A stretch of 64,000 bases of DNA from Daphnia pulex (taxonomy: Eukaryota; Arthropoda; Branchiopoda; Diplostraca; Daphniidae): assembly GCF_021134715.1 (NCBI RefSeq), contig NC_060027.1, positions 4,464,001 through 4,528,000 of the forward strand. The letters run 5' to 3'. Both the position numbers and the translations under genes were made by a program. Numbering within the stretch: the stretch's first letter is position 1; each line of letters begins with the position of its first letter. Below are positions 3,601 through 16,900 of this stretch, piece by piece. Under the pieces are notes generated by a model. That model was not told where the DNA came from. It saw only the letters and a program-made list of their open reading frames with translations, and searched no databases.

Positions 3601-4190
3601 TGCCACGCTAAAATTTACCGTCAAGGATTGTGACCCGACTACGGGTCTACCTGATTCAGATGACGGCTATGAGGATGACTATGTGGTAAGCAATTGAATC
3701 TCATAAAAATTATGTCGGCTCCTCCACTGATCCTCTGACTTCTTTAGCTTGAAGATGTTGAGATAGGAGTATCCGACCATATTCAACGATCGGCTAAAGC
3801 CTCATTTGGCACTGCATGGGAGGAGATGGGTTCTATGAACGAGTTGCAAGAAACCTTTTCGTTACCTGCTATTCGTACCCTGGATGAAGCAGTTCGTAAC
3901 ATCATATCTTTCCTTGGCTTGCAGCCTTGTGAATGGTCGGACAAAGTACCAGAAGGGAAAAGTGCCCATTCCCTCCTACTTTCAGGTAGACAATAATTGC
4001 ATTTTTAGTTTGACATAAATATTATATAATTTTATTTAATGTCGCTGTCGCAGGAGTTTTTCGGGGTGGATACGAAGTATTGGTGAGATCCAAATTGGCC
4101 CTTTCACCTGAAGGAGGGGTTACCATGCAGTTGTCTGTTCGTTCTGGCGACGCAGAAGTTTCTGAGTTGGTCGCTTCCGCTGTTGGTTAA
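606..4190 (+). CDS. COPG1: Coatomer subunit gamma (COPI coat), multi-exon
   Basis: Gamma subunit of the COPI vesicle coat, which drives retrograde Golgi-to-ER and intra-Golgi traffic. The start [13 protein letters not shown] is joined by an intron at about 641-831 to [20 protein letters not shown], the conserved N-terminus of the family. Exons then encode the adaptin-like HEAT solenoid ([27 protein letters not shown] and onward), a Pro/Ala/Thr-rich hinge (about 2980-3130) and the C-terminal appendage ([35 protein letters not shown]). The last residues are [11 protein letters not shown] before TAA. About ten short introns were recognised by GT-AG ends and frame continuity. Two AATAAA signals follow at 4251 and 4263. 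The gene looks whole. The product is very likely; exact splice borders are read by eye. Confidence 0.95.
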
Positions 4191-4268: not shown

Positions 4269-4387
4269 ATACAATTTAGCATAAAACGAACTTCACTTAA
4301 TACTATTTATTTACAAAAAAAAAAAAAAGATTTGGTTTCATCATTTCTATTGCGAGTCGACTGACTCGATGTTGACTCGATGAAACG

Positions 4388-4560
4388 GTAGGGCGACCGT
4401 AGAACTCCAAATACAGAAGGACTCCACCGACAATAGAACCCCAATATTTTAAATAATTTTTAAAAATTTCTTTGTATGCGACAGTAGAACTCCAAAGATA
4501 TAAGAACACCTTTTTTAAATATTATTAAAATTACCCTACAATGGAACTCCAGTGCCCGAC
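4388..4560 (+). repeat. Left terminal inverted repeat with reiterated GAACTCC motif
   Basis: The motif (A/G)GAACTCCA or a close variant recurs near 4401, 4420, 4434, 4484 and 4543. The first three are mirrored at the right end (13905-13840, - strand) with the same spacing, ending in a shared block reading CCCC(A/G)ATATTTTAAATAAT. Reiterated short motifs next to the tip are common transposase-binding arrangements, but binding here is inference. Confidence 0.55.
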
Positions 4561-4649
4561 ACCGACAGTACCTATCCGCCTTATTTTTGAAAAAAAACCC
4601 GCAATTGCGATCCGTGCCGGCCATCTCGTGGCAGTCATCGAAAATTGAT

Positions 4650-5285
4650 GTCTGATTTGGACCTCTTAAAAGAATGGCGAACACGTTGCGACTTGCAAGT
4701 GTGTGTCTGTCTGTGTCAGATTGTCAGTTGTCGCGTAACATACGATACGCTAACTAACATCAACAATTTGTGCCGTAATACCAATGAATACATAGGTAAA
4801 CTCGAGTGATTTCGTCTGTAACTTGTAGGTGATGTTCTATTCCGTGTATATATTGAATAACCTTAATGTTTTTCATCAACTTACAGGAGGAAACGTGAAA
4901 GTCGTAGGGCCTACAGGCTACAGCCTACCATCAACAATTTTGTTCAAAATCACTGTATTCTGCTGAATATGCCATCGAAATTATACAGGTAACAATCAAC
5001 CCTAGCTTTATATTGCTGAAACATATATTCTTCTCATTTTTTATTAGGATTCATCACAATTATCTGCTGTTTGTATTGGACTTGCTCGATCACCAACCCT
5101 GGCATGTACCAAGCTCTCATCTTCTAGAGTACCTTGGGTAACTAATCATCACTGATCAGTGGTTTCATGTGTAAGTTCACTTGTCTTTATTGCAGTCTAA
5201 TATGTATTTAAAGTATTGATCTGCGCTTACACCTATCAAATGTTTAAGAGGCAATTCCGTTGTAATACTGACAACTATTTAATGA
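4650..5285 (+). repeat. Arm repeat, copy 1 (left)
   Basis: About 630 bases including GGCGAACACGTTGCGACTTG, ACTCGAGTGATTTCGTCTGT and TTACAGGAGGAAACGTGAAA. The same sequence recurs at 9615-10280 (same strand) and 12660-13420 (opposite strand). It lacks a long ORF. Copy 1 is the most diverged in its second half. Confidence 0.8.
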
Positions 5286-5327
5286 GAACAACAACAACAA
5301 CAACTATTGACCGGAAGACGTCCATCC

Positions 5328-5735
5328 AGGAGTCCATCCGATTTTGGCAATTGGAGCGACGGACTGGCAAAGACCCACCCCGAGATGATCGTTGTCTTGA
5401 GCACTCCGCCCAACACCAACTTTATCCCTGCCATTGGGCGTCTTATTCCTCACGTCGGAGCGGCTCCGTTCCTCACGCCGTCTGCCCCCACGTCATCTTC
5501 TCTCTGCAGCCCATCGCTGCAGTTAACCGCAACAAGTTACTTTCTGCTGTTCTCCGCCTGATCCTCAATGCCACTGAGACCACCGAGATCCGTATCGCCG
5601 CCGTCTCCACATGTTCCACGTAAGTCCCAATCCAATCGAATCATAATAACATTAGTACATTGTTTTACTATCAACTACGCCGATTCCAAGCAATCCTTGC
5701 ATGAAGCCTATTTGAACGTCGCTCGTGATGCTGTA
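5328..5735 (+). pseudogene. Vitellogenin-like gene fragment, frames broken
   Basis: Three frames carry successive blocks that look like the lipoprotein N-terminal (LPD_N) region of a vitellogenin: SDFGNWSDGLAKTHPE then FIPAIGRLIPHVGAAPF in one frame, SLQPIAAVNRNKLLSAVLRL and LILNATETTEIRIAAVST in a second, and MFHVSPNPI in a third just after. A later piece, DSKQSLHEAYLNVARDAVRA at about 5680-5735, resembles the following helix pair. Vitellogenin is the egg-yolk lipid carrier. At least two frame changes lie inside the homologous run, and the rest of a ~2000-residue gene is absent, so this is a dead captured piece. The assignment rests on remembered family features (N-x-T-E-x-x-E-[IV]-R-I-A-A motif) and needs a search. 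Confidence 0.5.
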
Positions 5736-5739
5736 AGAG

Positions 5740-6459
5740 CTCTGTTTTTACACCCGTTTCTCATTGTGTTCGCATTTAACGGATAAATGCATCAAAACCT
5801 GACTGGTATCTTTAAGTATTTAAGTCCTTTAAGTCCTTTAAGTCATCCTGTTCTCACCACTCGAAATGGCTCTCCATCTCTGGTTTCCGATTTTGACTTT
5901 CGATTAGCAGAAGAGCTACTACGAAATGTAAATGGAACAAGAAGAAATATGCGGACATTTTTTTTTTTCGCGGCTATGCGTCGCGAAGAAAGGAATTGTA
6001 GTATTTGCTTCTAAATCGGATATTTTTAAAGCTAACCAGGCCTCACCAAGCATTTAGTTGTTGAGAAGTAGTTTTGATAGAGTGTTGGATTAAGTTCAAA
6101 AATAATTCACGTTTGTTGTCTTTTTCTGGTCCCTCCTCCGTTTTCCCTCAATTAAGACCCAAATTTAAGTAACTTGATCCATCCTGTGATTCACGGTGCT
6201 TATAGCTTTGAATGCAATCAGTAGTTTCCCAGAAAAAGGAATGGGGGAAGGGTGTTTCATGTTGGAATTTACCCCTCTCACAAAAAAAAAAGGTTCAGAG
6301 TGGCTCGGTTATATGTTATTCTGCGATATCGAAAACTAACAGATAAACTTTCTTAAATTGTATTTTCATATTAGGTATCTGATTTAGGTAGTCAAGGAAT
6401 ATTCAATTATAAAATGTGTAAAAGAACTAAGTTGAAAGGAATTGTGTTTTAGTGTAAAT
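5740..6459. other. Element interior without recognised content
   Basis: Contains a short AGTCCTTTA triple repeat near 5820-5845, a T9 run and an A10 run, and small ORFs of no recognisable family. I see nothing further here. Confidence 0.5.
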
Positions 6460-6507
6460 GAGATCAAATTGATAAAAAGCACTAGCTTAAAAAATTAGGT
6501 ACTTACA

Positions 6508-6592
6508 GACGCCGATGGGTTAGTGGATAAGGCATCGGCGTCGGCGTTTATCAGGATCTGGTCGCCAGGGTGGCTGATACTGGTTGGAACTC
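6508..6592 (+). repeat. tRNA-Arg-like head of tandem unit 1 (pol III A and B box)
   Basis: A perfect 10-base-pair hairpin, GACGCCGATG at 6508-6517 pairing with CATCGGCGTC at 6533-6542, encloses an A-box-like GGGTTAGTGGATAAGG. A B-box-like GGTTGGAACTC follows at 6582. The AATGGATAAGGCATCGGC-type order is that of tRNA-Arg D arms (from memory). It lacks a 3' acceptor strand, so it is not a functional tRNA. Confidence 0.55.
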
Positions 6593-7176
6593 ACGGTGAC
6601 GGCTTCAGGGGGGGTTGGCGGTTAAAAGCGGGATCGAACTGCTACTTGGCAACCTTCGGCATAAGAAACTCGATCCGTTGCATGCAGATTGTTCCTCAGA
6701 CCCAATTCGATAACGTTTTGTTAGAATTTTCAATATTTCCTTTCGTTTTGAATAAAGACGGCAAAAATGGGATGCGTCGTCACCTAAGAATCATGTCAGT
6801 GGTTCAAAACTTTGCACATGCAAAACTTTTTTCCAACACAGATTTCCATTTTGCTGTTTAAATCGATTACTTTTCCGCTTAGGATATGAAAAACATTATG
6901 TTGTAATTGTTTCAGAAAGTAGAAACTCATTTTGACGCGAGAAAAGATAGCTACTGAAAGCTACACCAAGCTACACAGTACACACGACACAAGCCCTTCC
7001 AATTAATTAATCAATCGCGCTCATTATGGATTTTAAGTTTTTAACTTAATCAGCGCATTATTAAAATGCGTAAAATAATTTCGATTTTCAAATCAAGGCT
7101 TGGGGGAAAGTTGTATAATTGAGATAAAATTGAAAGAAAGAAAGACTAGCTTAAAAAAATTAGTAGTAGTAGTATA

Positions 7177-7259
7177 GACGCCGATGGGTTAGTGGATAAG
7201 GCATCGGCGTCGGCGTTCTTTGATTTGGTCGCCAGGGTGGCTGTTACTGGTTGGAACTC
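7177..7259 (+). repeat. tRNA-Arg-like head of tandem unit 2
   Basis: Same hairpin as unit 1 with identical stem strands (7177-7186 and 7202-7211); B-box-like GGTTGGAACTC at 7249-7259. A short TAG triplet run (TAGTAGTAGTAG) precedes it at about 7161. Confidence 0.55.
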
Positions 7260-7831
7260 ACGGTGCGAAGGCTTCAGGGGGGGTTGAAAGTTAAAAGTGG
7301 GTTGGAGCTGCTACTTGGCAACCTTCGGCATAAGAAACCCGATCCGTTGTATGCAGATTGTTCCATACTTAGACCAAATCCGACAACGTTTTGTTAAAAT
7401 TTTCAATGTTTCCTTTTGTTTTGAATAAAAGGCGACAAATGCGGGATACGTCGTCATATAACAATCAAAGTCAGCGGTTCAAAACTTAAAATATGAAAAA
7501 AAAAATTTTTAACTCAGATTTCTATTTTGCAATTTATTTTAGATTTCTTTCCTGTTTAAGATTCGAAAAAAACGTTGTTGTAATTGTTTCGTATCGTAGA
7601 TCCTCATTATGGTGCGAGGGAATATAGTTGCTGAAGCTACCCAATAGCCCTAATCGCGCAATAGCACAATTCCAATTAATTAATCAAGTTCGTCGTAATT
7701 TCAAGTTTAATTTATTTAGCGCATTTTAAGAATTCGTTGAATAATTTCGATTTTTTAAATGAAGGCTTAAGTAAAATAATATGATTGAGATAAAGTTTTT
7801 AAAATACTAGCTTCAAAAATAAGATAACTTT

Positions 7832-7915
7832 GGGCGCCGATAGCCTAATGGTTAAGGCGTCGGCGCCTACGTTGTCGGATCTGGTCGCCAGGGTGGCAGA
7901 TACTGGTTCGGAACT
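7832..7915 (+). repeat. tRNA-Arg-like head of tandem unit 3
   Basis: GGCGCCGATA (7832-7841) pairs with CGTCGGCGCC (7857-7866) over eight Watson-Crick pairs and one wobble. The second pair is G:C where units 1 and 2 have A:T, a compensating change. The A box TAGCCTAATGG (7840-7850) fits the pol III consensus better than in the other units, and GGTTCGGAACTC (7904-7915) resembles a B box. Confidence 0.6.
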
Positions 7916-8485
7916 CACGGTCACGGCTTTGGGAGAGGTCGGCTGCTGCTGTTAGTTTAGGATAGGGTATTAGGTTAAGGTATAGGTTAGGGGTTATAGG
8001 TCCTCATCAAAGCCTGAACCGTTGCATGCAGACTATTCCTCAACAGACCCATCCGATAACGTTTTGTTAATATTTTCAATAATTTCTTTTGTTTTGAATA
8101 AAAGATGCGAGATACGTCTTCACCTTACAATCATGTCAGTGGTTCAAAACTTTGCACATGCAAAATATTTTTTCCAACGCAGATTTCTATTTTGCCGTAT
8201 TTTTCTATTAAAATTTGATTTCTTTTCTGTTTAGGAGTTGAAACAAACATAGTTTTGATTGTTTGCTGACCTAGAAACTCATTTTGACGTGACAAAAGAT
8301 AGCTGCTGAATAGAAGCTACATCAAGATTCAAGCTACAGGCAAGCCCTTCCAATTGATCAATCACGTTTGGATTTTAAGTTTAATTTATTTAGCACATTT
8401 TTAAATTTCGTTAAATAATTTTTATTTTTTAAATTAAGACGATTAAGACTTAAAGAAAATAGTATAAAATTTGAGATAAAATTGA

Positions 8486-8944
8486 TTGAAATATTTATTT
8501 GATCAAGATTCCAATTTTTCATGTTGTTACGGCTTACTTTATTCATCAGACTTGGTCAAATATTTGTTTTTATTTGTTTGTCTCGCAATCAGTGTTGGTT
8601 CCACGTCGGGCACCCTTTCTACAAGCAGCACGATGACAAGCAGCACTTCGAGAAGTCTTTTACAAAGTTGAAAACTACTTCGGCGCAAGTAATACCAACA
8701 ACCACGTTGGTAAGCTGAGTAAAAATCAGGAAAGACGACTCGATAATATCCAGGCGTTCAATCATGACTATAATCATCAAGGGCTCAAGGCGTTGATGGC
8801 AGTAATTGAGCTAAACCAAGAAGAAGATAACCAGCCATCACATTCAAAATTTCATGATAACTTAAGTTTGATTTCAAATCATAGACCAGGTGGGGAATCA
8901 ATACTTGAGAGACTACACAAAAAAGAAATAAAAGATGGATGATG
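8486..8944 (+). pseudogene. Unrecognised ORF remnant in the element
   Basis: An ORF at 8486-8671 has a hydrophobic start (LVKYLFLFVCLAISVG) then a Ser/Thr-rich stretch, like a signal peptide. An overlapping frame open from about 8620 to a TGA at 8942-8944 reads YFGASNTNNHVGKLSKNQER early on and ends ESILERLHKKEIKDG. The composition looks protein-like, but no family is recognised and the two frames are not continuous. It may be another captured gene piece. Confidence 0.3.
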
Positions 8945-9614
8945 CCAAATGCTTGGGTTGGCCGCCCATATTCAAGTAATCGTCAATCTGATGCCCTTTG
9001 AACCAATATACGTAAGTGAAGAAGAAGCAGCAACAGCTGCCCTATCTTTAAAAGTGATCTCCAGTTTAATACAGCTGCCGAAATTGTCAGACACGGATTA
9101 CGAACTTAATTCGCCCGTTTAGTGTCACTAATTTGCCATTATTTTTTTGAACGCTTGCAAAGCATTGGACTCCAACATCCCCACAATTAACCGACACAAT
9201 TAACCGAAATTCGGACGCTATATTCTTGCCGGAAGGGACAACAGATATTCTACCGGGTAAAATTCCATTGGAACTATTTATGGCTTAAATGTATTCCCTA
9301 TTTTTATTAAAATGCCAAAATTTTTCCATTCCAGGTTCGCCATCTCTCATATCGGTCTATTACAGCGGTAATCAACACTCAAGTACAACGGCGTATACAA
9401 GATTGTTCCTCGTCCGACGGTACGTAATCGATCTGGCTTATCTCATGTTTATTCTATCTTAAATGCTACATTAAGTTTTTTTTTGTATTTTAAGACCAGT
9501 CCTTCAAAAACTGAGTTTTGAAACGTGTCAAACAGATGGCGTGTTGATTGTGTCAGTTATGGGCTTATCGCTCATGGCGGTTTGCTGTCAAAACCTAAGC
9601 TATCTTTTCTTCGA

Positions 9615-10280
9615 AAATTACCAAGGAATTCATGGGTAAATTCGAGTGATTTCGTCTGTAGCTTGTCGGTGATGTGTTCTATTCCGTGTACATGTTGGAT
9701 AACTTTATTGTTTTTCATCAACTTATAGAGGAGGAAACGTGAAAGTCGTGCAGCCTACCGTCAACTATTTTGTTCAAACTCATTGTATTCTACTGAATGT
9801 GCCATGGAAATTATACAGGTAACTAACAACACTAGCTTTATTACATGCTGAAACATGGATTCTTCTCATGTTTTATTAGGATTTACCTTAATAAATGGCT
9901 GTATATTTTGGATTTGCTAGATCACCAACCCCAGCATGGACCAATCTCTCATTCCATCCTCTAGAGAACCTTGGATAACTGATTGGTGGGCAGTCTAATA
10001 TATTTTAAAAGTATTGATCTGTACTTACGTCTATCTAATGTTTAAGAGACAATTTCGAGTGTGTACTGATAAATGTTTTATTATTCTTTTAGATCATGGA
10101 TATCAAGAACATTGATGGCACCAATTATAAACAAGGTGACTTATTTTTTTGTAATTTACAGGTTCCAAATTACAGGTTTCTAAATTGAAATTACAGACTT
10201 TATGAGAACTCGTATGTCATTTCAAGAAAAAGGACAGGATTATGCAGTCAATACGATTCATTGTTTGCTAACCGTTGGCT
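9615..10280 (+). repeat. Arm repeat, copy 2 (internal, same strand as copy 1)
   Basis: Repeats the arm sequence and extends further, with GATCATGGATATCAAGAACA and GAAAAAGGACAGGATTATGC near its end. Over 9880-10275 it is nearly identical to the - strand of 13010-12670, with only scattered differences by eye, so copies 2 and 3 form an inverted repeat around 10281-12659. Confidence 0.8.
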
Positions 10281-10793
10281 GCCACCATTGAATCTCCATT
10301 TTTACTTCCTTAAACGGGCCCTCTTGATTTGAGGTATTGTTTTCTGTTGCTTCAATTTTTTTAAATTATTGTCATCCAAAATAAATGTTCTTTCTGCTTA
10401 CAGGGTAATCCTTCGCTACTTATCGTGGACTTCATCCATTGCTGAACACCGACGAGAGCATGCAGTCATTCAAGACTGATGAATTGTGTAGTTAGCAAAA
10501 TTACAAGTGCATATGTGGGCTCCCTTCTTTTCTGTGGCCCTGTTTCCCTAACTAACCACTAACCAACGCCCGCCGGTGGTCACTCACCCGCTGTGAAACC
10601 AGGAGGAGGGGAGGGCTCTGGTCGAACGGGGACTTGGAAGGCGCATGATCCGATGAAAACTTTTGGAGGGTCATGAGTCTAACCCGGAAGCCTAGTATAA
10701 CTACATCTCCCCAGTAAAACTGGCCTCGTACTTCTCTCTTCTTCTCGGTCCAGATACTATCTCTGGGGGCCGTAGACAAAACCTACAATTGCA
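10281..10793. other. Element interior between inner arms, left part
   Basis: Contains an unrecognised 75-codon open frame on the - strand (10552-10779) in a locally GC-richer stretch. It has no domain I know and no neighbours that explain it; possibly another captured fragment, possibly chance. Confidence 0.3.
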
Positions 10794-11226
10794 TGTGCGA
10801 GTTAAAACAAAGCAACCCACTACCCAATGAAACAAAAAGCCATGGTTTATTTCTTGCGGAAATCTGCATCATTCAAGATACAAATTTTTCTAATTCAACA
10901 ACTCGCGTAGCATTTTGCATCTAGTCTATTAGTGCAAATCGCGATTCCATGTGTTTGGTAGTTAAGAAAATAGTTGTTTAAAAAACAAACAATGGGGTGT
11001 TCTGAGTAGCCAAAAAAACTCACCATTGTTTGTTTTGTAAACAACATCTTCTCAACTACCAAACACAAGGATCGCTATTTGCACCAGTAGACTAGATGCA
11101 AATTCGACAGAAGTTTTGAGTTTGAAAAATTTATAACTTGACTGACGCAGATTTCCGCAAAACTAAAACATCGCTTTTTGTCTCGTTGCCGCAGCGGTGG
11201 TGGCGGGTTGCGTTTAAACTCGTACA
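10794..11226. mobile_element. 433-base palindromic (MITE or fold-back) element
   Basis: The left half from TGTGCGAGTT (10794) mirrors the right half ending at 11226. The blocks AGCAACCC/GGGTTGC, GAAACAAAAAGC/GCTTTTTGTCTC, GCGGAAATCTGC/GCAGATTTCCGC, TGCATCTAGTCTA/TAGACTAGATGCA, TGTGTTTGGTAGTT/AACTACCAAACACA and AAACAAACAATGG/CCATTGTTTGTTT are in mirrored order, around a loop of about 30 bases near 11010. It could fold along its whole length. It has no ORF and I see no clear target-site duplication. Confidence 0.75.
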
Positions 11227-12322
11227 GAAGAAAAATGTCTTGAATCGGACGCTCTGTTTATTGAATTATTAATTTTTGTACATGACAGAAAAATAATAAA
11301 AGCTGATTTAATTTATAATTTTTTATTGATTACAGACATAGGGTTTAACACTGGTTTATGTGGTTTAGGGTATAAATTTGAGGGTTGGTAGGTGTATGAT
11401 TGTGGGGTCTGAAGAATTGGAACTTGAAAGGTATAGGTTTGGTGGGTTTGGAGATTAATTGGTAGGGATATGTTTGTAGGGTTATAAATTAACTGTGTTT
11501 TATCCAAACTCGAAATATCCCCCCTCAAACATCTCCACTTTCCTTAATCCTTTCCCAACCCCGAAAACATGTTTATTATTTGTTTGACATAAGCATCCCA
11601 TATTTGTTTTTGTTGCTTCTTAACTTATAAACGGTAAACTGCATAGTCACGATGACAATTTAACATAATAATGATGCAACTTCGGTAACACGACACCAGC
11701 ATCAAGGAACGGCCAATTGAATTTGATGCAGAAAGATCTTTCTAAGGCATAGGCTGCGCGCAACAACGTACCACAGCGGACAGCAACTACGCGAACATAC
11801 ACGATAAACCTATAACCGAAATGAAATGAATTAATGTTCAACATCAATGGAAATGCTGTCAATGAAAAGACAAATTAATGACACTCTATGTGGTTTTAGT
11901 TAAATCAATTATTCTGAAAACAATATCTGATACTGATAGCTATTGTTGAAACAAAAACCAAGTGTGTGATTTAAACTACAAAAATGAAGATGGAGAAGCT
12001 AAGACTTTAACTGGATGTTAATCCTGCTTTAAAAAAATCAATTACTATCAAGCAGTGAATTCTCATGCGAAGATAACAAAAATGACACAAGTATAGTTAA
12101 ACTACGAAATCTCTCAGTGTCAGTTAGCAAGCTTTTTGAATCAGCCAGACAATTAGAAAGTTGATTGAAATCATTACTTTGGTTGTTCATGTTTCTTCAT
12201 AACACACAGCAGTACAGGTAGCAAGTGGAAGAGGAAGAAGATCCTTTACCAGCTGGCTGAATCAAATCCATGTGTACTTTGGGCAGCCACGACGAAGCTC
12301 AGACCTCACCAGACCGTTTATC

Positions 12323-12354
<32 letters not shown>

Positions 12355-12659
12355 AATTACTATCAGGGACACAGCGTCTCAAATGACGAAAACAAAAATA
12401 CAGAAGTTAAAGTTAACTATACAATCCTTCGGAATAAATTTTGCAAAGGAACCTACAGCTAGCAAGCTTTTCCAAGGAAAACAACTTAAGTTCTACAACA
12501 GAGGCAAGTTAAGACATAGTCACCAACTAACTAAGTCTAACAGTTAAAAAGTTGCACATATTTACCTGATTTGTTCTGAAGTGTTTCTTACAAAACATAT
12601 AGACGGTACAGGAAAAAGAGACGACATCTTGGCAAAATGTTCAGATGCTCAGGCTCTGC
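11227..12659. other. Element interior between inner arms, right part
   Basis: No gene recognised. It holds a GGTTTAGGG/GAGGGTTGGTAGG-like simple stretch (11340-11480), a pure A run of about 27 bases (12324-12350), and two loosely similar segments, 12028-12140 and 12346-12470. These share TCAATTACTATCA, ACAAAAAT, AGTTAA-ACTA and TAGCAAGCTTTT in the same order, suggesting an old tandem duplication. Confidence 0.4.
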
Positions 12660-13420
12660 TCAGAAGTTAATGAATCATATTGACTGCATAATCCTGTCCT
12701 TTTTCTTGAAATGACATACAAGTTCTCATAAAGTCTGTCATTTCAATTTAGAAACCTGTAATTTGGAACCTGTAAATTACAAAAAAATAAGTCACCTTGT
12801 TTATAATTGGTGCCATCAATGTTCTTGATATCCATGATCTAAAAGAATAATAAAACATTTATCAGTACACACTCGAAATTGTCTCTTAAACATTAGATAG
12901 ACGTAAGTGCAGATCAATACTTTTAAAATATATTAGACTGCCCACCAATCAGTTACCTAAGGTTCTCTAGAGGATGGAATGAGAGATTGGTCCATGCTGG
13001 GGTTGGTGATCTAGCAAATCCAAAAGAAACAGCCAAATAATTAAGGTAAAAATCCTAATAAAACATGAGAAGAATCTATGTTTCAGCATGTAATAAAGCT
13101 AGTGTTGGTTGTTACCTGTATCATTTCTATGGCACATTCAGTAGAATACAATGAGTTTGAACAAAATAGTTGACGGTAGGCTGCATGACTTTCATGTTTC
13201 CTCCTGTAAGTTGATGAAAAACATTAAGGTTATTCAACATATACACGGAATAGAACATCACCGACAAGTTACAGACGAAATCACTCGAGTTTACCTATGC
13301 ATTCATTGGTATTACGGCACAAATTGTTGATGTTAGTTAGCGTATCGTCTGTTACGCGACAACTGACACTCTAAGACACACACTCGCAAGTCGCAACGTG
13401 GTCGCCATTTTTTTTTAGAA
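12660..13420 (-). repeat. Arm repeat, copy 3 (right, inverted)
   Basis: On the - strand it runs in the same order as copies 1 and 2. Its outer part (13250-13420) resembles copy 1 most (GGCGACCACGTTGCGACTTG, ACGATACGCTAACTAACATC), whereas its inner part (12670-13010) resembles copy 2 most. Confidence 0.8.
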
Positions 13421-13790
13421 GGTCCAATTGGATTTTGCATCAGCAATTTGAACTAGTTCAAACAAATTTGCTTATTATATTTACACTAGGCTCTGGGGGT
13501 AAACTTTCGTCAACCACTCAGCAATCCGCCATGACATGACATCACTTCATGGCCTAGACGCCTAGATACCAGTTTCTACACGCGTAGTTCAAAAAATGAT
13601 CAGCGCCATCTAATGGTGATGAATTGGTTAAATTTGACCGACCCACCATCTACTGGCGAAAAAGTAAACAGTCACCTATTGCTGAAATTTCGAACTAACC
13701 CTTCCGCATCCGTATGTGCAAAGTTCCTCCCGTACCCGTATACCAAAAAACCTTTACTTTATTTTTACAGAATCCCTAAGGGAAACAAAG
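13421..13790. other. Unpaired insert in right end of element
   Basis: This stretch has no counterpart in the left end. It has CGCCATCTAATGGTGATGAA and CCATCTACTGGCGA, and a TTTATT at 13758-13763 that reads AATAAA on the - strand. No gene is seen. Confidence 0.4.
13758..13763 (-). promoter_or_regulatory. Candidate LARS1 poly(A) signal inside the element
   Basis: AATAAA on the - strand, about 205 bases after the LARS1 stop codon. I find no AATAAA between the stop (13967) and the element border (13906), so this is the nearest canonical signal. Use is inferred. Confidence 0.45.
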
Positions 13791-13966
13791 AAATTTAAAT
13801 TAATACAAAGAAATTAATTAATTTCATTATTATTTCATTATTTAAAATATCGGGGTTATATTGTCGGTGGAGTTCTTCTCTCTTTGGAGTTCTACTGTCA
13901 GCAACCCGATGAAACGTATACGGCACGCAAGTGAGCCCAATTGTTGTATTTTTAAATCCTTGAAAT

Positions 13967-16900
13967 TTACAATGCAACAATATACGTCAAACTTGACCCA
14001 ATGTCAATTTGTACCCCATTTTCCTCGACCGCAACCGTGTTACTTTCAACGTTCACGAAGAATGTACTTGCTTCAGTCAGCTGAACCTTTCCTCTTTCTA
14101 AATCGTCACTCGTAGGAATTTTTCTAGGGCCAAGAATAGGGTCTTGGAAGCGCCAAAGGCTAACGCGTTTGGGATCTAAAATACAGAGTAAGTTGTAAAA
14201 TTGTATTGATTATTTTTATTTCTATTTATTACTGCCAAAATACCTTTAATTTGTTTATGATGTTTAACCAAACGACTGACTAATTTTGCCGGAGTATCAC
14301 CCTGCATTACTGTCAGTTTTACTTCAAACAAACCAGAAAGAGGTTGAGGATTGACGAAGTTGATGGAAACTCCAGGTTGGTGACGGAAAGTAATATGAGG
14401 GGTGCCAGGAACGCAGTCTTCTTTAATCTTCTCATCAGCCGTTGAATCATCAGAATAAAGGACGTTCAAACCCTCTAACTGCTCATACCCAGTCCCGCAT
14501 TCAAATGAATAAAATATACAATCATATGCACACATATTTCGTTTCCTATGTTAACTTACGTCTAACGTTGCGGTGAGATACTCTATGTTCTTCGTAATTA
14601 CTTCTACTTCGTCGAAATCCATGGTTAGATTGAGGGCACGAATGCCGTGCTTGGCAACTTTTTCTTTCGCCACTTGAACAAAAGGCATTACTTTCTTTAG
14701 AGATTTTTTCAATTCTGGTTTCGAGCTTAGTTCAGTTGACAGCCATTTGTTGTCAGGCATAACTCCGTCTTTCTGAAATCAAAACGAAAATAGTGAAATG
14801 AGAAACACACACGCAAGTTATAATTCCAGCTTTTTTTTACGTTAAATCTTTCTTGAAGCAGGGTCAGAATAATTGATTGCCAAGTAGGGTAGCTTTTGGC
14901 TATCCAGATAGTTCCGTGGGTGGGTTTTCCAGTTGGTACATTGACGGCTTTTTTAGCGCCTTTCGACGTAAGTGATGCCAAGTATGCTTTCAGTCGCAAG
15001 CGGAATTCGTGAGCAGCCTGGTCTAAATAAGCGCCCGCGCTGATGAGAACGCTGTCGTATTCAGGAACTGTCGGCCACCGAGATTTCAATATGCTTTCTT
15101 TATGACCAAGCAGTTCCCAAATATGTTCCGCGACGTGCGGACAAATCGGGGAGAGAATAACAGCTTGAGTTTCGATATACTTCAAAATTAGTTTTTTATG
15201 AACGTTGCCCATGCTTATTTCTCTATAGGTGTCACGGATGGCTTGGTATTCAAAGAACCCAGTTCGGAGAGCCTCTGAATAAATTAAAAAGAAAAGTTAG
15301 ATTTTTTAGAATTATAACTTCGGCTCCATTTAACTAAGTACCTTTAAAGAGCATGCGATCGTAATTCTGATTTGTCTCAACGATTTTGAGATTCATTTCA
15401 TTATCAAAAACTTGATCGTTAAACGTGTAATCCGAATCTCTAAGTTGATCCACTGTTGCAAGGCATTCTTTAACCCAATCAATCAAGGTATACAACCTGT
15501 ACAAATAAAAAAGGGTCAACTCGTACGTTAATTCTAATTGCAATATAATATAACGCTACCTCAAAATACCAGCGTCTGCCATTGCTTCAACGAAGTTTGC
15601 GTCTTCCACAGAATCACCCGAATCAGCCAAGGCTAACCTCATACCGTCAGCGCTAAACTTATCAATAGCGTCAGAAAGAGTCAAGAAGTTGCCTGTTGAT
15701 TTTGACATTTTTTCAGAATTGAGCAGCAAGTGACCATTGGCTCGAATGGCTTGAGGCCACCTGGAATATAAAATTTGTAAAACAACAAACATTTATATTG
15801 GTTTACTTATTTTTTCCAGCATATTGTTGATTACCTGTTGGGTTCGTTTGGCCAGATGGCAACATGGTTGTATAGAAAATAGGTCAAATGGTTGGGAACC
15901 AAGTCCTTGCCTGATACGCGCAAGTCTACAGGATACCAAAAATTGAATTCTTTCTTCAAAGTACTCAATTTCTCTTGAGGAATCGTAGTCTTGGGTAGGG
16001 ATGCTTCTTTGAAGAAAATGTAATCCCAGACCTCGGGTGTCATTTGATCGGCTTTGATCCCCAAGGCGTTTTCTCCTGAAATGTAACATCATTACGAAAT
16101 AAAAAAATGTTTTAACTAAGGTTGGATGTTTATAGATATTTGATAATGTACCTCTTCCATCAAAAGTATTTCCTTGCAACAAATGCGCGACCGTATAGTA
16201 CGCCATATAAATGGTGGAATCTGAAAGCGATTCTATTAGCCATTTTTCATCCCAAGGCAACTTCGAGCCAAGACCATAAGTTCGCGAGCACGCATGCTCT
16301 TTAAGCCAATCTAGGGTGGCAGTAAAGTTTTTACGAACTTCGTCGTGATAGGTTTCAGTTTTCGCCAAAGCTTCTGTAGTGCGTTCCCTCCAAACTCCCT
16401 TTCCGTAATCGAGATACCATTGGTCACAGAGAGCAACCACGCACTCGTCACCTGATCTATATGTCCAATATTTTGCATTAATATAACACGACAGAATAAA
16501 TATGTGAAAGAACATTACACACCTTGAAATGATCGTTTTCTCTGGTTCCATGTAAACAACTGCTTGCGCTGCTTCAATCATTTCCTTCTGAATCACTTTT
16601 TTGACATCTTGCACTTTCTTGCCCTGATGAGGTCCAACAAGGAGAACGCCATCGTAGAACCCTAAAACTCAAAATTAGATCTATTTCTAACTTTCGTTAA
16701 TGAAAATTATTATACCTTTCAAATAAACAAGTTCTTTAGCCTCTTGGAGTTTATCTCTGTCATTTTGACTCTGGATTTTGAAGCGATCGCATGCATAAAC
16801 TGCACTCAGATTCCCCAGTTCAGGAACTTCTACAATTGGAACAGGCTCAAATGGTAAAACCATTTCATCCTTGATTCCGTATTTTTCTCTGTAAATAATT

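Follow-up and report, generated by a model that had tools for sequence, protein, structure and literature searches.

The FB elements of Drosophila have hairpin-forming, internally reiterated ends, and Galileo, a Drosophila transposon of the P superfamily with long repetitive terminal inverted repeats (TIRs) and foldback-like ends, duplicates 7 bp of its target and has been described as linked to ectopic recombination. In the composite Ising transposable elements, large DNA is described as framed by foldback elements (PMC6431247), while the Tm1 Mutator/Foldback elements of root-knot nematodes are reported to have composite foldback-like TIRs, two terminal motifs, and members that resemble miniature inverted-repeat transposable elements (MITEs); their target-site duplications measure mostly 8–10 bp (45 of 53) and most often 9 bp, and one element was reported to be nested in another (PMC3169594). 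The Pack-MULEs of plants, as described, hold a gene-like fragment between TIRs and are flanked by duplications of 8–11 bp (PMC6431247, PMC6446971), and none of those of Jiang et al. 2004 exceeds 7 kb according to a review. For Daphnia pulex, several classes of Mutator-like elements (MULEs) have been tabulated (PMC8594854). Here, we analyze an element of 9,521 bp within a 64-kb stretch of the D. pulex genome (NC_060027.1, positions 4,464,001 to 4,528,000; hereafter the window, whose own positions are given unless a contig is named), which is placed between the 3′ ends of the genes for gamma-COP and leucyl-tRNA synthetase (LARS). A first-pass annotation had interpreted it as a Pack-MULE or giant fold-back element. 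Our results indicate that it is probably a foldback MITE in which duplicated DNA has interrupted or replaced the middle, and not a 9.5-kb Pack-MULE.

The 10-base repeat that had been annotated as the target duplication is real: the window contains exactly two copies of CGATGAAACG, at 4378-4387 and 13907-13916 (0.13 expected by chance; two copies in 1 of 100 shuffles). However, when the tips are aligned to further copies from the genome, each boundary shifts by one base, leaving GATGAAAC as a target-site duplication of 8 bp with an 8/8 match, and an element that spans 4387-13907 with the ends GGTAGGG...GCAACCC. Since copies with the same tips have 8-bp duplications, the extra C and G are terminal bases of the element that match the flank by chance. 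The annotated inverted ends (4395-4457 versus 13837-13899, 90%), the GAACTCC motifs common to both, and the longer inverted arms farther inside (4708-4921/13169-13382 at 93%; 9896-10262/12669-13035 at 98%) were all found. The tips and the 8-bp duplication are the record of one insertion and, in line with the earlier claim, support a DNA transposon that is non-autonomous and has a genuine target-site duplication.

Copies of these tips were searched for in the window's own genome (133.2 Mb in 13 contigs), and all counts for the family are lower bounds. The first 243 bp of the element yielded at least 53 matches at E ≤1e-3, including the window (40 of 189 candidates scored). The left tip (A, GGTATGGCGACCGTAGAACTCC) matched at 84 places when up to 3 mismatches were allowed and the right tip (B, GGGTTGCTGACAGTAGAACTCC) at 48 places when up to 2 were allowed, each with 0 matches in a reversed-pattern control. 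Pairing each inward-facing left tip with the next right tip within 50 kb resulted in 13 convergent pairs, a list that leaves out more degenerate tips such as those of loci L048, L051, and L056. Eleven pairs span 227–327 bp, including one A...A pair and two that represent the same insertion in a segmental duplication; another spans 1,258 bp (C10:4097655-4098912), and the window copy spans 9,521 bp. When tips were placed at random, with approximate contig sizes, A/B pairs within 10 kb averaged 0.155 per run and reached a maximum of 2 in 400 runs. Furthermore, reiterated CGACA(A/G)TAGAACTCC modules with spacers are present in 8 aligned short copies, together with GAACTCC modules, and hairpin folding of two short copies, neither of which is the window copy, resulted in z-scores of −22.7 (505-bp copy) and −8.7 (227-bp copy), both of which beat all shuffles. 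Eleven short pairs were scored for the duplication, with L047 dropped because one tip was not found; counting L052 and L053 once, 10 are independent. The 8-bp duplication matched at 8/8 positions in 3 of these, at 7/8 in 3, at 6/8 in 1, and at 4/8 or fewer in 3, i.e., at 6/8 or better in 7 of 10. The search that the first-pass annotation had proposed, for copies with the same tips and with duplications, was thus positive in the same genome.

Shared tips at many places, a duplication of constant length, and reiterated, hairpin-forming arms (as seen in the two folded copies) are traits of a foldback MITE family, and the A/B copies show them. It is extremely improbable that the locus is ordinary ancient intergenic sequence with a terminal match by chance, which the earlier annotation had named as a refuting outcome. 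Only the mosaic interior described below would fit such a reading, which is contradicted by tip families without a single reversed-pattern match, by 8-bp duplications at other copies, and by a flank motif that occurs twice, exactly, at the tips. The 22-mer of the tip had no exact match in viral and prokaryote collections. No description of the A/B family was found in titles or abstract openings of the listed papers on Mutator-like elements, MULEs, foldback elements, and palindromes in Daphnia and on Pack-MULEs in arthropods, and a term search of the main text of PMC13359780 returned no mention of Daphnia or crustacea.

Several A/B copies have outer flanks in common (L005/L007/L050/L066; L002/L058; L003/L060; L063/L064); therefore, many copies sit inside larger repeats or duplications. 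L052 (C10:13642115) and L053 (C10:13800688), about 158 kb apart, contain one A/B insertion with the same ACGGTAAC duplication in inverted orientation and are an inverted segmental duplication. L005, L007, L050, and L066 are four A-tip copies with one outer flank, and downstream of the modules, L005 and L050 differ from L007 and L066 as if the far side had been exchanged by recombination at the MITE.

The modules of the window copy fall into two blocks (184 bp and 75 bp), which follow the A...B order of one MITE and are separated by 9.26 kb. Twenty-eight other loci, representing 27 distinct places, each contain one module block of 154–370 bp; 19 of these loci extend only 1.5 kb past the match and 9 extend about 9.7 kb inward, and no second block was present in the latter nine (eight new places). 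The short length of a foldback MITE family is accordingly seen in the two end pieces of the window copy alone, and not in the 9,521 bp as a whole with its split modules. Alternatively, the whole 9,521 bp might represent a giant non-autonomous foldback or composite element, which after acquiring DNA of the palindrome described below moved as a unit between its A and B tips and was mobilised in trans. This would account for the perfect 8/8 duplication exactly at both tips and for inverted arms inside without a clean inner insertion signature; moreover, as many copies are one-ended in the DNA examined, there may be longer relatives whose far ends went unrecognised, and composite Ising elements framed by foldback elements have been described as a precedent (PMC6431247). 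However, among the 13 convergent pairs only this one reaches such a length (a count that would miss copies with degenerate tips), the loci read far inward contain no second block, each end holds a partial rather than a full MITE, and the interior's homolog at C11:4.11 Mb lacks a listed A/B tip. We therefore consider movement as a unit rather unlikely. Thus, the annotated term "fold-back" fits the A/B family, but a single giant 9.5-kb element is not supported by the spans of the tip pairs and the mosaic interior.

Most of this interior has a counterpart on the same contig, C11. Over 7.9 kb (window 4779-12663), it matches the arm sequence of a palindrome located about 340 kb away, at C11:4.11-4.13 Mb. 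The window differs from the two palindrome arms by 1.55% and 1.58% substitutions and the arms differ from each other by 1.04%, with 75, 38, and 37 private changes for the window and the two arms. The palindrome (C11:4110100-4134500; L074, L067, L068, and L075) is longer than 24 kb, its arms are 97.4% identical over 10.5 kb, and they still pair at both ends of the 24.4 kb examined; an assembly error is a possible alternative. The genome tip lists contain no A/B tip on C11 between 3.63 and 4.46 Mb. Toward the left end, the stretches 4668-4719 and 4708-4921 are inverted relative to 13363-13414 and 13169-13382, respectively. The right arm is itself a mosaic, the outermost columns of which are nearer to the left arm and the remainder nearer to the second repeat block or its palindrome copy.

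We infer that the interior came later than the tips, because the modules are split and the interior is young and contig-local, with a homolog that lacks A/B tips. In this scenario, a non-autonomous foldback MITE of about 0.28 kb, with A and B tips and hairpin arms, would have inserted between the 3′ ends of the two genes and duplicated 8 bp. Patchwork DNA of 9.26 kb would later have interrupted its middle or taken its place, with 7.9 kb copied from the C11 palindrome or from a recent source common to both, while the rest would consist of dispersed repeats and a re-copied inverted arm. A clean nested insertion with its own duplication was rejected, since the inner junctions (4546-4605 versus 13766-13812) contain no direct repeat of at least 5 bp. 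Because palindromes have been described as break hotspots (PMC4245961), repair of a break in the hairpin centre, accompanied by template switching, would be favored over a clean second transposition. Foldback MITEs might in general be break-and-capture sites, at which the hairpin centre breaks and repair copies many kilobases from the same chromosome with template switches, leaving filler between intact, transposition-competent tips; this generalization is speculative, and we give it limited credence.

It should be noted that a number of observations weigh against an interrupted MITE. Three of the 10 independent short pairs (L050, L055, and L064) lack a duplication. When the left half of the window copy is viewed as a 3-kb locus (L001), it also appears as one block; because it looks just like the other 3-kb loci, these are uninformative about a farther partner. 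Of the 28 loci, just 6 had tip-like ends (up to 6 mismatches, a score reached at 4 of 500 random points) on the two sides, so that most copies are one-ended, and many A/B copies are one-ended remnants. Depending on the copy compared, 33–248 bp of the MITE middle are absent from the window halves (best local alignment on short copies; both halves could be mapped in 11 rows, which represent 10 distinct copies). Furthermore, the element is symmetric with respect to its inner arms, a layout that a true long-TIR element would also have. The right inner edge consists of a recurrent repeat tip, TTCCC(K)TAGGGATTCTG (44 genome places; control 0), which adjoins or lies close to A/B modules in the window as well as at C8:13340175 and may be linked to them. 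Finally, no inner duplication proves a second insertion, and in the one genome covered, the MITE occurs at this site solely with its interior.

The coding content bears on the Pack-MULE interpretation, in which MULE ends would enclose a captured vitellogenin-like fragment. In line with the annotated lack of a visible transposase, no Pfam transposase was found in the 25 open reading frames (ORFs) of at least 65 aa that overlap the element, with shorter or interrupted frames outside the scan. All Pfam matches were below the cut-off: Vitellogenin_N (E 0.0035), CRM1_repeat (0.018), PV-1 (0.031), HTH_73 (0.043), and NA-iREase1 (0.1). The first of these corresponds to the host gene fragment of the earlier annotation, which was thus recovered, but at a weak score. 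The fragment lies within the palindrome-shared block, and the same DNA occurs at other places on C11 without a listed A/B tip nearby, which speaks against a gene fragment captured between the ends. A tblastn search with 25 MULE-domain ORFs from the same genome gave a match at 8659-8763 on the minus strand, with E 0.003–0.073 from seven related queries, which at its lowest E is better than the best of 40 Markov-shuffled elements (0.057). However, this match covers 35 residues with a stop, is the best of 25 queries, lacks Pfam MULE support, and likewise lies in the palindrome-shared block; together with its neighbor (Table 1), it is possibly a decayed remnant, but not a firm one.

Duplications of 8 bp also fit the hAT and P superfamilies. 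The genome contains 55 MULE-domain matches, one of which is located about 5.5 kb inside an A tip on C10 (L066), and the duplication length lies within the range of 8–11 bp given for MULEs (PMC6446971). The C10 MULE was nevertheless set aside as an autonomous partner: the outer flank of this A tip is also present at L005, L007, and L050, and because A/B copies are often nested in larger repeats, the link may reflect nesting and the MULE was not taken as the transposase of the family. We therefore regard a Pack-MULE as very unlikely and retain the interpretation of a foldback MITE with later filler.

Table 1. Features of the element and its target-site duplication. Positions are those of the window.
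Feature	Position	Strand	Basis
Target-site duplication GATGAAAC, left copy	4379..4386	+	Flank-motif count and tip alignment
A-end half of foldback MITE, tip GGTAGGGCGACCGTAGAACTCC and GAACTCC modules	4387..4570	+	Genome tip/module comparison
Inner left patch; 4692-4770 resembles palindrome locus C11:4111637 (90%)	4571..4778	+	Sequence comparison
Segment matching the palindrome at C11:4.11-4.13 Mb	4779..12663	+	1.55% substitutions (~7.3 kb alignable to both arms)
Dispersed repeat block, copy 1	4779..5283	+	Self and genome comparison
Weak vitellogenin/lipoprotein N-terminal-like gene fragment	5468..5605	+	Vitellogenin_N, E 0.0035, 16.4 bits versus cut-off 24
Three head-to-tail ~670-bp repeats	6458..8491	+	4 other copies at 97–98%, all on C11
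Two weak MULE-transposase-like matches: 8659-8763 (minus) and 8593-8637 (plus)	8593..8763		Best E 0.003 (minus) and 0.073 (plus), without Pfam support
Dispersed repeat block, copy 2	9619..10262	+	Self and genome comparison
Inverted-repeat (MITE-like) sequence	10825..11188	.	Self and genome comparison
Dispersed ~1.46-kb repeat	11200..12662	+	342 genome candidates (40 scored)
Dispersed repeat block, copy 3; inner part resembles copy 2, outer part (first ~80–140 alignment columns) copy 1	12669..13311	-
Inner right patch, ending in the recurrent repeat tip TTCCC(K)TAGGGATTCTG (13768-13784)	13498..13784	-
B-end half of foldback MITE, with minus-strand tip GGGTTGCTGACAGTAGAACTCC	13833..13907	-	Genome tip/module comparison
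Target-site duplication GATGAAAC, right copy	13908..13915	+	Flank-motif count and tip alignment

Among the repeats of the interior (Table 1), copy 3 of the dispersed block has 449 candidates in the genome (40 scored). Its copies at C9:1338367-1363884 follow each other in steps of about 5.46 kb in both orientations, which suggests an array of a larger repeat. More distant copies of the ~670-bp repeats were found on C11 and elsewhere. By eye, each of these repeats starts with a tRNA-like stretch; a tRNA or short interspersed nuclear element (SINE) nature was rejected, with no ARAGORN match and no Rfam match at gathering or E ≤1.

The two housekeeping neighbors were identified as annotated. Gamma-COP (E 2.8e-72) lies on the left, with its stop codon at 4188-4190 followed by AATAAA signals that begin 61 and 73 bases 3′ of it. 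On the right, the cytoplasmic LARS is encoded on the minus strand, with its stop codon at 13967-13969 and a last exon that matches solved cytoplasmic leucine--tRNA ligases at their C-terminal residues (E 3.1e-9). From the LARS stop codon to the duplication, there are 51 bases. Within the 467 bases scanned downstream of this stop, the sole AATAAA/ATTAAA is located at 13763-13758 (minus strand), in the inserted DNA, and the LARS 3′ end may therefore now depend on a signal provided by the insertion.

The locus illustrates that even a convincing duplication at the termini can enclose DNA that was probably not brought by the transposon, which is a trap for calls of giant elements and Pack-MULEs. 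Moreover, it records a foldback MITE family whose two tips are distinct and whose duplications measure 8 bp, and it offers a case, open to testing, in which several kilobases of filler lie inside a MITE next to an essential gene (LARS). If true, break-and-capture would provide animals with a path to giant, cargo-bearing elements and would likewise account for the many A/B copies that keep one end only.

In comparison with the known systems, the window element resembles Pack-MULEs in its TIRs, the length of its duplication, and the gene-like fragment inside, but capture of the fragment by A/B ends is putative and the link to MULEs is not firm. Likenesses are also found among foldback-type transposons. 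Like Tm1 as described, the A/B family has composite foldback-like TIRs, two terminal motifs, MITE-like members, and a duplication within the usual Tm1 range of 8–10 bp, and nesting is reported for Tm1 too; it differs in its 8-bp duplication, compared to most often 9 bp in Tm1, and in having no identified transposase-bearing member. The foldback-like ends of Galileo are similar to those of A/B. Compared to FB and Ising elements, the window has a partial MITE on each side and the mobility of the large unit is putative; nonetheless, A/B shares the hairpin-forming, internally reiterated ends of FB, and in Ising, as here, large DNA lies between foldback ends.

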